44,590 nt of DNA, taken from NCBI GenBank assembly GCA_030690545.1, contig JAUYGN010000062.1:1-44590 (forward strand). The letters are read 5' to 3'. Under the pieces are notes generated by a model. That model had not been told where the DNA came from. It did no database searches and worked only from the letters and a program-made list of their open reading frames with translations. Positions within the stretch are counted from its first letter, which is position 1; the number at the start of each line of letters is the position of its first letter. This document shows, one piece after another, positions 11,501-44,590 of the stretch. This DNA is from Solirubrobacteraceae bacterium (GTDB taxonomy: Bacteria > Actinomycetota > Thermoleophilia > Solirubrobacterales > Solirubrobacteraceae). Made by a program: the position numbers and the translations under genes.

Positions 11501-12610
11501 CTACACGTTGAGCCTGATCGGCATGATCAGGTACAGAAACCCGCTGCCGTCGGCCGACTCGATCAGGCCGGGGCGCAGCGGGCTGATGAGCTTCAGCACG
11601 AGGTCGCCTCCGTCGCCGCTCTCCAAGCCGTCGCGCAGGAACTCCGGGTTGAAGCCGATCTCGAACGACTCGCCGCTGAACGCAAGCGGCATCGTCTCGC
11701 GCGCCTCGCCGACGTCAGGGGTCTGTGCCGACACGGTCAGCTCGCCCTCCGCGAAGTGCAGGCGCAGCGGCGCGTTCTTCTGCGCCATCAGGCTCATGCG
11801 CCGCACGACCTCGGTCAGCTCGCCGGAGGTCAGCGTCAGCTCGTGCTCGAAGGCGTCGGGCAGCAGTTGGCGATAGTTCGGGAACTGACCTTCGATCAGC
11901 CGCGACGAGAGGACGTCGCCGCCGACCTCGAAGACGATCTGGTTGGAGCGCACCGAGACGGTCAGCGTGTCGGCCTCGGCGGCCTGTGAGATGCGCGCGA
12001 GCTCCTGCAGCGCGCGGGCCGGCACGTTGGCCTCGAACCCGCCCTCGAGCGGGGCCTCGAGCCTCGTCTCCTTGACGCTGAGGCGGTAGGAGTCGGTGGC
12101 GACCATCCGCAGCTCGTCGCCCGACGCCGAGACGAGGATGCCCGTCAGGATCGGCCGTGTCTCGTCACGCGACGCCGAGCGGGCGACGCGGTTGATCGTC
12201 TCGACGAACGCGGTCGCCGGCACCTCGACGACGTTCTCGCCGCCGGGCTCGGGCAGCGGGGGGAAGTCCTCCGAGCGCAGTGTGCGAATGTGGAAGGTCG
12301 CGGAGCCGGAGACGACCTCGACGTCCTGCTCGGCGGGCCGGAGCTCGAACGTCGCCTGCGCGCCGGGCAGCGAGCGCGCGACGTCGAGCAGGAGACGAGC
12401 CGGCAGCACCACGGTCCCCTCGCGGTCGACTTCGGCCTCCAGCGGGACACGGAGGCCGATCTCCATGTCGGTCGCCCGCAGCTCGGCACCGCCGGCATGA
12501 GCGCTGAGCTGGACGCCGGAGAGCGCTTGCACCGCGCTCCTCGTCGAGGCGACGCGCGCCACGACGCCGAGTTGTGCGAGCAGGCTCGCACATGACGTCG
12601 AGAACTTCAC
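11501..12610 (-). CDS. dnaN: DNA polymerase III beta subunit (sliding clamp)
   Basis: 369-residue processivity clamp, which encircles DNA as a dimer and binds DNA polymerase III and repair partners. Seen: three clamp-fold repeats, with ATDMEIGLRV in domain I, RPILTGILVSASGDELRMVATDSYRLS in domain II, and the C-terminal LMPIRL segment that forms part of the client-binding pocket. It starts at GTG 12610 (MKFSTS). The only upstream purine-rich stretch is AGGAA, about 9 bp away, so initiation may be weak. It lies between dnaA and recF in the canonical order. Confidence 0.97.
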   Translation of the reverse strand: MKFSTSCASLLAQLGVVARVASTRSAVQALSGVQLSAHAGGAELRATDMEIGLRVPLEAEVDREGTVVLPARLLLDVARSLPGAQATFELRPAEQDVEVVSGSATFHIRTLRSEDFPPLPEPGGENVVEVPATAFVETINRVARSASRDETRPILTGILVSASGDELRMVATDSYRLSVKETRLEAPLEGGFEANVPARALQELARISQAAEADTLTVSVRSNQIVFEVGGDVLSSRLIEGQFPNYRQLLPDAFEHELTLTSGELTEVVRRMSLMAQKNAPLRLHFAEGELTVSAQTPDVGEARETMPLAFSGESFEIGFNPEFLRDGLESGDGGDLVLKLISPLRPGLIESADGSGFLYLIMPIRLNV

Positions 12611-12733
12611 GTCGAACCGTTCCTATGCGAGATCGGAGTCATAGAGCGTGTGCAGATGTGGAGAACGGGATGCATTCGCGCGAGTTGCGCAGACCTGTGG
12701 GGTGCGAGCGGTCGCAGTGGTGTGCAGAGTGTG
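12611..12733. promoter_or_regulatory. dnaA-dnaN spacer with degenerate DnaA-box-like motifs
   Basis: 123-bp spacer where many actinobacteria carry oriC. Seen on the plus strand: TGTGGAGAA (12657-12665), one mismatch from the DnaA box TGTGGATAA; TGTGGGGTG (about 12696-12704), weaker; and two identical octamers GTGTGCAG (12648-12655 and 12720-12727) flanking the set. No perfect DnaA box and no AT-rich unwinding stretch are present. It may be the dnaN promoter region with DnaA autoregulatory sites, a reduced or non-canonical origin, or both. Confidence 0.4.
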
Positions 12734-42620: not shown

Positions 42621-44186
42621 CTACCGGCGCAGCGGGAACGGCGTGCGCGCGAGGCCGGTGAGGGCCTGTGCGGTGACCCAGACCGGCGTCTGCGCGCTCG
42701 AGCGCGAGTAGCGCACGGCGCCGCCGGAGGACTGCAGCGACGCGAGGTAGGCGAGCGGGGAGCGAGCGCCGCCGCGCCGCAGCCCGGTCGGGTTGCGCCC
42801 GGCCGCGACGACGCCCTGGATCGCCCACGCGGTCGACTGCGCGTTGGAGCCCTGGCCCGGCGTCAGCGGCATCCCGCCGTCGGGGTTCTGCTGGCGGGTC
42901 AAGAACGACGCTGCGCGCGACACGGTGACGCTGCTGCGCTTGCCGGCCGCGACGAGCGCCTGCAGCGCGGCGGCGGTGTCGTCGATCCCGCTGCGCCCGC
43001 CCCGGCCGGCGAAGTGAAAGCCGCCGTCGTCGTTGCGCTGGGCCAGCAGCCACGTCGTCGCGGCCCTGATCGTGGCGTCGCGCGGCGAGCGGCCGGCGGC
43101 GCGCAGCGCGAGGATCGCGAACGACGTCTGGTTGACGAGCCCCTCGAAGGAGCCGTTGGCGCGTCGCTTGCGCACGAGCTCGCGCACGAGGTCGCGGCCG
43201 CCGACCGCGCGCGGCGAGCGGCCGGCGGCGCTGAGCGCGAGGATCGTGCGCTGGACGTCGCCCGTCGTGCGCACCTCGCCGATCCGGCGCACCATGTAGT
43301 CGACCGGCGAGCGCCCGCCGCGGCGCACGCGGTTGGGGTCGCGGCCGGCCGCCTTCAGGCCGAGCACGGCCCAGCTCGTGTAGACCTGGCTCGATGGGCG
43401 TCCGCGGTCGCCGCCGAAGCCGCCGTCGGCGTTCTGCGCCCCGGCGAGGTAGGTGATCCCGCGCGACGCGGCGCTCGCATGAGCCTGCGGCGGCGCGATC
43501 GCGACGGCGCTCAGCGCCACGAGCAGCGCCGCGACGACGATCGCCGTCGCGGGCCCGGTGGCGGGTGCGGGCGGCAGTGGCTTCCAGGTGATGTCCAAGC
43601 GGTCACGGTAGCGCCGCAGCGCGCGCACGAGCAGCGGTCCGAAGGCGAGGCAGAAGACGACGTTGCCCGCAGCATGGGCGATGTTGAACGGCAGACCGCG
43701 CCCCGCGATCACGAGGTACTCGGTCATCGAGTGCGCGCCCGCGTACATGACCCACAGGTGCAGGTCCATGAACGCGCCGTACGCTAGGCCCGCCAGCGCG
43801 CACGCCGCGGCAAGCGCCCAGCGACCGAGGCCGCCGCCGAAGATGCGCGCCAGCAGCGCCCCGAAGACCCCGACCCCGCCCCAGGCGGCCATCTGCCAGG
43901 GCGTGAACGGCCCCTGGCCGAAGAAGACGTTTGACGCCAGCGCGGCGACCGCGCCGACGACGAAGCCCGGCGCGCCGCCCAGCACGTAGCCGGCGAGCAG
44001 CACGATGTCGGTCGTCGGCTTGACGCTCGGCAGCGGCGCGAACGCGACGCGACCGAGCGCGGCCAGCGCAGCCAGCGTCGCGACGAGCGCGAGCACCTTC
44101 GCCGACGGCCGTGCGCGCTCGTACCACGTGAAGCCGACCCCGAGCGCGACGGCGAGCAGGCCGAACGACGCGAGCTGCCAGGTCAC
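42621..44186 (-). CDS. ECF transporter S component fused to prenyltransferase/squalene-cyclase-type repeat domain
   Basis: 521 residues from GTG 44186 with AGGTGG 4 bp upstream. Residues about 1-200 form five or six helices typical of energy-coupling-factor S components (TDIVLLAGYVLGGAPGFVVG, NVFFGQGPFTPWQMAAWG, LPFNIAHAAGNVVFCLAFGP). A further helix (about 215-235) leads outside. The rest (about 240-521) is an alpha/alpha toroid with repeated QN-DGGFGG-type motifs: LAGAQNADGGFGGDRG, LLAQRNDDGGFHFAGRGG, LTRQQNPDGGMPLTPGQG, each followed by helices such as QTSFAILALRAAGRSP. The toroid has the fold class of squalene cyclases and of eukaryotic cobalamin carriers. The substrate is unknown; the next gene is its ECF ATPase. 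Confidence 0.92.
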   Translation of the reverse strand: MTWQLASFGLLAVALGVGFTWYERARPSAKVLALVATLAALAALGRVAFAPLPSVKPTTDIVLLAGYVLGGAPGFVVGAVAALASNVFFGQGPFTPWQMAAWGGVGVFGALLARIFGGGLGRWALAAACALAGLAYGAFMDLHLWVMYAGAHSMTEYLVIAGRGLPFNIAHAAGNVVFCLAFGPLLVRALRRYRDRLDITWKPLPPAPATGPATAIVVAALLVALSAVAIAPPQAHASAASRGITYLAGAQNADGGFGGDRGRPSSQVYTSWAVLGLKAAGRDPNRVRRGGRSPVDYMVRRIGEVRTTGDVQRTILALSAAGRSPRAVGGRDLVRELVRKRRANGSFEGLVNQTSFAILALRAAGRSPRDATIRAATTWLLAQRNDDGGFHFAGRGGRSGIDDTAAALQALVAAGKRSSVTVSRAASFLTRQQNPDGGMPLTPGQGSNAQSTAWAIQGVVAAGRNPTGLRRGGARSPLAYLASLQSSGGAVRYSRSSAQTPVWVTAQALTGLARTPFPLRR

Positions 44187-44238: not shown

Positions 44239-44590
44239 TCACGGGCGCGCCTCGATCGTCAGCCGCGCGCGCAGCAGGTCGGCGCCGTCCTCGGGCAGCA
44301 GCGCGCCGTCGACGATCCGCGCCGTCTCGGTCGCGAAGTACCAGCCGCCGCTGAGGACCTCCGCGGCCGCGCCGTCGGCGATCAGGCGCCCGTCGGCGAG
44401 CAGCACGACGCGGTCGGCGACGGTCGCGGCGAACTCCGGATCGTGCGTCGCGACGAGCACGGCGCTGCCGGCCGCGGCGGCGGCGCGCAGGCTCGATGCG
44501 AGCTCGCCCTTGGCGGCGCGGTCCATGCCGCGCGTCGGCTCGTCGAGGCACAGCGCGGCGGGCGCCCCGGCGCTCGGCGGGCCGTTGCGC
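44239..44590 (-). CDS. ECF transporter ATP-binding protein, N-terminus cut by window edge
   Basis: C-terminal 116 residues of an ABC ATPase. Seen: Walker B with the D-loop, LCLDEPTRGMDRAAK, the H-loop histidine in VLVATHDPEFAATVADRVVLLADG, and an ECF-type C-terminal extension (LSGGWYFATETARIVD). Walker A and the signature motif lie beyond 44590. It is upstream of and co-directional with the S component (52 bp apart), so it is likely the energising subunit. The T component is expected beyond the edge. Confidence 0.9.
   Translation of the reverse strand, partial: RNGPPSAGAPAALCLDEPTRGMDRAAKGELASSLRAAAAAGSAVLVATHDPEFAATVADRVVLLADGRLIADGAAAEVLSGGWYFATETARIVDGALLPEDGADLLRARLTIEARP

Follow-up and report, generated by a model that had tools for sequence, protein, structure and literature searches.

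The window, the whole analysed stretch of 44,590 nucleotides from a Solirubrobacteraceae bacterium, carries on its minus strand a 521-residue open reading frame (44186..42621; start codon GTG) in which a CbrT-like ECF S component is fused to a toroid predicted to be extracytoplasmic. The AF2 model of the fused protein, calculated from 77 aligned sequences (mean pLDDT 93; pTM 0.79), shows membrane helices within residues 3-226, followed by 12 toroid helices between residues 239 and 512. From its N-terminus the protein consists of an extra membrane helix seen in the model (residues 3-24; 44115..44180), which falls outside the part aligned with Lactobacillus delbrueckii CbrT; the ECF-CbrT-like S-component domain (residues 29-196; 43599..44102), recognised by a phmmer match to 6fnp_A and by AF2; a linking hydrophobic segment (residues 211-232; 43491..43556) with a hydropathy peak at 213-231 and an AF2 helix at 212-226; and an alpha6/alpha6 toroid (residues 233-521; 42624..43490), identified by Pfam, AF2 and fold comparison. 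An S-G-I-D-D-T motif apparent from alignments (residues 399-404; 42975..42992) opens one of the inner helices of the toroid. The basic stretch R188-R196 ahead of the linking helix should be cytoplasmic, and the toroid is therefore predicted to lie outside the membrane. Adjoining the gene, on the same strand (44239..44589), are the C-terminal 116 residues of an ECF ATPase, cut by the contig end and recognised by NCBIfam ABC/ECF ATPase matches. The preliminary description, made from the DNA letters, had proposed an S component, linking helix and extracytoplasmic toroid in one frame next to an ECF ATPase gene; this layout is confirmed, the extracytoplasmic side of the toroid being a prediction, and in the full-chain structure prediction that it called for the repeat region folds as an alpha6/alpha6 toroid.

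In relatives the gene order is unbroken: riboswitch, D1, D2, EcfT (CbiQ), double ATPase and S-toroid. EcfT and the double ATPase, which lie beside S in those genomes, are found as partial copies at two contig ends in the genome of the window. The window itself stops at the end of contig C12, and contig C145 ends inside the CbiQ/EcfT gene, upstream of which, on the same strand, are D1, D2 and a cobalamin riboswitch (RF00174; 61 bits). The partial ATPase (44589..44239) aligns at 85% identity with residues 417-526 of its counterpart in relative G002. The window's assembly did not yield its first 416 residues, so that C145 is joined to C12 on the basis of synteny. The preliminary description had also suggested looking for riboswitches upstream of the operon, and one of the cobalamin type is present, on the same strand, at 22 of 22 family-level loci examined (the genome of the window included, across the assembly gap); these loci are related to one another and therefore do not represent 22 independent events. 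Cobalamin riboswitches also occur in several Bacillota and other Actinomycetota operons. None was found in the fetched DNA of the Clostridia loci L127-L130, L134 and L136, or of the archaeal, Armatimonadetes and Streptomyces-type loci, some of these stretches beginning inside the operon.

In the window's genome metE, a class I ribonucleotide reductase operon and cobG/cobIJ/cobF each stand behind a further cobalamin riboswitch, three targets that would be expected for a B12 regulon. At locus L044 (5406-9958), too, a cobalamin riboswitch stands ahead of the genes for a class I ribonucleotide reductase (beta, then alpha), suggesting that a B12-dependent reductase is encoded elsewhere in that genome. 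At two further loci (L062:15418-15806 and L071:15311-15753) divergent transcription units start from a pair of cobalamin riboswitches that lie on opposite strands and overlap or are close neighbours. Divergent from the B12 operon of L040 (2689-8016) are genes for two FecCD/BtuC-like permeases, an ABC ATPase and an apparent siderophore-interacting protein, probably an iron uptake locus.

D1 is a secreted protein with DUF4430 and Ig-like domains in relatives; the D1 of the window's genome has no Pfam match of its own, and its DUF4430 assignment rests on these relatives. D2 is a lipoprotein containing DUF4430 (PF14478; E 6e-12), the C-terminal domain of the vertebrate B12 carriers (PMC4350170). 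In a model (pLDDT 95) of the D2 homologue from the close relative L113, the first 102 residues match haptocorrin (4kki) with a Z of 13.8 and bovine transcobalamin with 12.8. The model also matches the beta domain of intrinsic factor (Z 12.4-12.5) and the isolated human transcobalamin beta domain with cyanocobalamin (5np4; Z 12.3), the beta-domain family as a whole spanning Z 11.8-13.8. The best 15 structures all belong to this family or are 3u7z of Ruminococcus gnavus, and the match that follows them (Z 10.5) involves another part of the chain. At the sequence level, a profile of the whole D2 lipoprotein returned nothing significant from the PDB, while a wider DUF4430 profile from the operons reached haptocorrin as its best sequence (E 0.0018; residues 377-432). 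Tyr385 of haptocorrin has been named as a ligand-specificity residue (PMC3331988), and its position is occupied by Phe or Tyr in 41 of 41 D2 homologues; the position of Trp382 is Gly in most of them, so that the agreement in contact residues is partial. The C-terminal part of D2 (residues 109-282 of model m129348947963, a homologue of L040:518-1471) is similar in fold to a BcsB domain and to the N-terminal domain of GH67 glucuronidase, each with a Z of about 10. The DUF4430 beta-domain partner was absent from the preliminary description, and it makes the idea of ligand capture much more specific.

The C-terminal half of the fused protein matches the Pfam families SQHop_cyclase_C (2e-13) and Prenyltrans (1.5e-9), and the toroid is modelled by AF2 with a pLDDT >93 across most of the domain. 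Fold comparison aligns it with squalene-hopene cyclase (Z 27.4; 265 residues, 2.9 A) and with RabGGTase-type (geranylgeranyltransferase) beta subunits (Z 22.8); the best 50 matches listed in this full-chain comparison are cyclases, prenyltransferases and a few hydrolases. Judged by sequence, squalene cyclases and prenyltransferases come closer to the toroid than the alpha domain of transcobalamin does. No transcobalamin-type Pfam family was found for it at E<=1, nor for 15 Bacillota toroids, and no transcobalamin chain is among the 60 matches listed for a toroid profile against the PDB, which comprise cyclases, prenyltransferases, complement/macroglobulin domains and a few others. The zinc ligands of the prenyltransferases (Asp, Cys, His) are likewise not seen: the toroid of the window possesses no Cys and its relatives have 0-1.

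The most serious alternative to a binding domain is that the toroid is an extracellular enzyme, related to the class II terpene cyclases, which acts upon a corrinoid or another ligand. Its nearest relatives in sequence and, among the matches listed, in fold are indeed cyclases. Moreover, S399, D402 and T404 are invariant in the toroid alignments; D402 aligns with the catalytic D303 of drimenyl diphosphate synthase (the residue mutated in the synthase entries), and the motif D-x-D-x-T is invariant in the Bacillota toroids, both of which would favor catalysis. However, the window protein reads G-I-D-D, the first Asp of DxDD being replaced by Gly, and the full DxDD is present in 10 of the 27 aligned toroids and missing from the other 17, the window protein included. 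No Cys or His is conserved. The predicted extracytoplasmic position would also hold the domain away from the known isoprenoid diphosphate pools, and the toroid shares its operon, and in some Bacillota its polypeptide, with a beta domain of the B12-binding type. Taken together, an enzymatic role appears unlikely to us, and a binding domain is preferred.

In sister orders, in other Actinomycetota and in Bacillota, the ECF operon holds toroid and S component as two separate genes. Such separate genes accompanied by DUF4430, EcfT and ATPase are found in Clostridia (L127-L131 and L134), in an Armatimonadetes bin (L137) and in Actinomycetota (L133, L146 and L157). The stand-alone toroids exhibit signal-like segments at their N-termini and SLH, LPXTG or C-terminal membrane anchors. 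In Bacillus/Neobacillus (L145:2795-4606 and L155:2724-4550) the DUF4430 domains and the toroid reside in one surface polypeptide, that of L155 with an LPXTG anchor, and a cobalamin riboswitch lies ahead of the operon; both transcobalamin-like halves are here in one chain, in reversed order. Genomes of the Streptomyces type contain an SCO2321-family toroid gene before EcfT, ATPase and a distant S component. Cultured carriers include Conexibacter arvalis for the fusion, and Desulfoscipio geothermicus and Neobacillus cucumis for the split forms. In Clostridium muellerianum (L149:7845-11355) two CbrT-like S genes are separated by a few kb, and a toroid gene immediately precedes the second; the cobalamin riboswitch in the fetched DNA of this locus lies downstream (12515-12701).

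The archaeal operons possess DUF4430, ATPase and S genes without a toroid, and S genes without a nearby toroid are found at L066, L069, L070, L078 and L079; the toroid is therefore not indispensable. Because some operons with DUF4430 have no nearby toroid, the domain could be a scaffold linking the transporter to the DUF4430 lipoprotein or to the cell surface, with the DUF4430 proteins alone capturing the ligand; the beta domain of human transcobalamin, in isolation, has indeed given crystals with cyanocobalamin (5np4). Against this stands the conservation within the toroid. Toroid pockets bind ligands where the inner helices begin, and it is at the inner-helix starts that alignments and the AF2 model place strictly or nearly conserved polar residues (N352, S399, D402, T404, N448, Q450, S451, T452 and T505; T452 and T505 aside, these residues are strictly conserved), which suggests a ligand site in the toroid. 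We consider a purely structural role improbable, and infer instead that the toroid binds a corrinoid.

The nature of the cargo is indicated by the membrane half. Searched with phmmer against all PDB chains, residues 29-196 match residues 9-175 of 6fnp_A with an E of 8e-14, and no other PDB chain matches the S half at E<=10; in Pfam, residues 30-177 weakly match ECF_trnsprt (0.006, under the cut-off). The motifs P..D, SN.F.G.G.WT and HAAGN are common to the S domain and CbrT. Structure 6FNP is that of ECF-CbrT from L. delbrueckii, in which CbrT, an S component specific for B12, binds and transports the vitamin and also transports cobinamide (PMC5997447). It is thus very likely that the operon takes up B12, and cobinamide, being a substrate of CbrT as well, may be a co-substrate. 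Two kinds of ligand had been entertained in the preliminary description: the cobalamin-like one is strongly supported by the CbrT-like S domain, the cobalamin riboswitch and the beta-domain lipoprotein, and the hydrophobic one finds no support in the operon. Cobalamin riboswitches also precede transporters of cobalt and of precursors (PMC2667541), and the genome of the window has aerobic cobalamin synthesis genes behind a riboswitch, so one might suppose that a corrinoid precursor (cobinamide or dimethylbenzimidazole) or cobalt is carried in place of B12. The S domain, however, matches CbrT and no other S component in the PDB, and the fold of the beta domain is that of the B12 carriers; these two findings render precursor or cobalt transport very unlikely, and B12 remains the preferred cargo.

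The survey of the class proposed in the preliminary description gives a divided picture, with the fusion confined to one order and the halves encoded by separate, neighbouring genes in the other families. A profile of the fused protein matches 178 of the 229 genomes of the class; in 70 of the 229, all from one order (families f1-f3), a single match covers both halves. Fused reading frames are present at 37 of the 79 loci of a named survey, including that of the cultured Conexibacter arvalis DSM 23288 (L095). In the other families the S gene comes first and the toroid gene follows closely or overlaps it (for example in G312, G310, G316 and G237). As 70 genomes of one order span both halves and the sister families are split, the fusion is an old, inherited state of that order. 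An assembly or sequencing artefact, which might be imagined from the adjacency of separate S and toroid genes in sister orders and from the G036 copy broken by a frame change, is ruled out for practical purposes by these 70 genomes and 37 loci, and the sequencing error which the preliminary description had named as a threat to its interpretation is thereby set aside. In the G036 copy (L075:9022-10632) the frame changes near residue 103, probably through a sequencing error or decay of the copy. Two loci titled as a Bifidobacterium breve MAG (L085) and a Chlamydiae bacterium (L099) carry operons of the Solirubrobacterales type and are probably misnamed bins.

From the genes, the predicted folds, the regulatory element and the co-occurrence described above, we consider it likely that the fused protein is the substrate-binding subunit of an ECF importer for B12 (corrinoid) with a built-in extracytoplasmic capture domain. 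The toroid would stand outside the membrane atop the CbrT domain. Because the operon encodes the second half of a clamp of the transcobalamin type, we propose that the toroid, as the alpha half, and the beta domain of the D2 lipoprotein would close upon one corrinoid in the manner of the two transcobalamin domains; probably they grip it together and hand it over to CbrT. The corrinoid would be released from the clamp into the outward-facing CbrT pocket, whereupon EcfT and the ATPases would drive the usual ECF cycle, and when B12 is plentiful the riboswitch would shut the operon down. The genes and the riboswitch are observed; the grip, the hand-over and their geometry are what we read from them. 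That S and toroid are separate in sister orders and fused here argues for their physical cooperation. The more far-reaching proposition, that this is a split transcobalamin (the alpha half on the ECF S subunit and the beta half a lipoprotein) which clamps the corrinoid over the transporter and is akin to the vertebrate carriers, seems to us evenly balanced between true and false.

The general description of ECF importers has, to our knowledge, no place for an extracellular capture protein, since the vitamin is bound by the S component itself. In the open papers searched we found no report of DUF4430 or a toroid joined with an ECF system, nor of an S component with an extracytoplasmic domain attached to it. 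Already known are ECF-CbrT, DUF4430 in the vertebrate B12 carriers and the annotation of an additional lipoprotein component beside a putative cobalamin ECF transporter in lactobacilli (PMC9963975). If a widespread B12 ECF operon has a capture module covalently joined to its S component, this would change the picture of ECF transport, assign a function to bacterial DUF4430 as well as to the SCO2321 family, and link bacterial uptake to the intrinsic factor and transcobalamin of vertebrates. Were the split transcobalamin to prove true, the vertebrate B12 carriers would either be descendants of the capture proteins of bacterial ECF importers or have a common ancestor with them. The analysis suggests that bacteria, here a soil bacterium, attach a two-part B12 catcher to the transporter itself; and since the fusion fixes which S component belongs to the toroid, hand-over becomes testable within one protein.

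Among known systems, ECF-CbrT of L. delbrueckii (6FNP) shares with that of the window the S family, EcfT and two ATPase domains. The solved CbrT is a 182-residue S component without a toroid and relies on an ECF module common to other S components, whereas the window-type operon has its own ECF module, a fused toroid and DUF4430 proteins. The CbiMNQO and NikKMLQO importers transport metal ions, and their component families differ from those found here; we know of no toroid or DUF4430 among them. They are similar in that they, too, are ECF importers with components beyond the M, Q, O core (PMC2667541). The lactobacillar CbrS-CbrT cluster (PMC5997447, PMC9963975) has an extra component beside a cobalamin ECF transporter, with no toroid reported. 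The SCO2321 family (NCBIfam NF053823) is comparable in that its toroid gene shares an operon with genes for EcfT, an ATPase and a distant S component; it differs in being a separate gene with a C-terminal membrane anchor and no DUF4430 found nearby, and the two Streptomyces-type loci that were scanned showed no riboswitch. Squalene-hopene cyclase and drimenyl diphosphate synthase resemble the toroid in fold (Z 25-27) and are its closest sequence relatives, whereas the window protein lacks a complete DxDD, is membrane-tethered, is predicted to lie outside the cell and belongs to a B12-regulated operon. Transcobalamin, intrinsic factor and haptocorrin combine, like the window-type operon, an alpha6/alpha6 toroid with a DUF4430-type beta domain, although no sequence similarity was detected between the toroid of the window and the alpha domain of the vertebrate proteins. 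In the vertebrate carriers the two halves constitute one soluble carrier that is read by an endocytic receptor, whereas here, as predicted from genes and models, the transporter bears the toroid and a lipoprotein supplies the beta domain.
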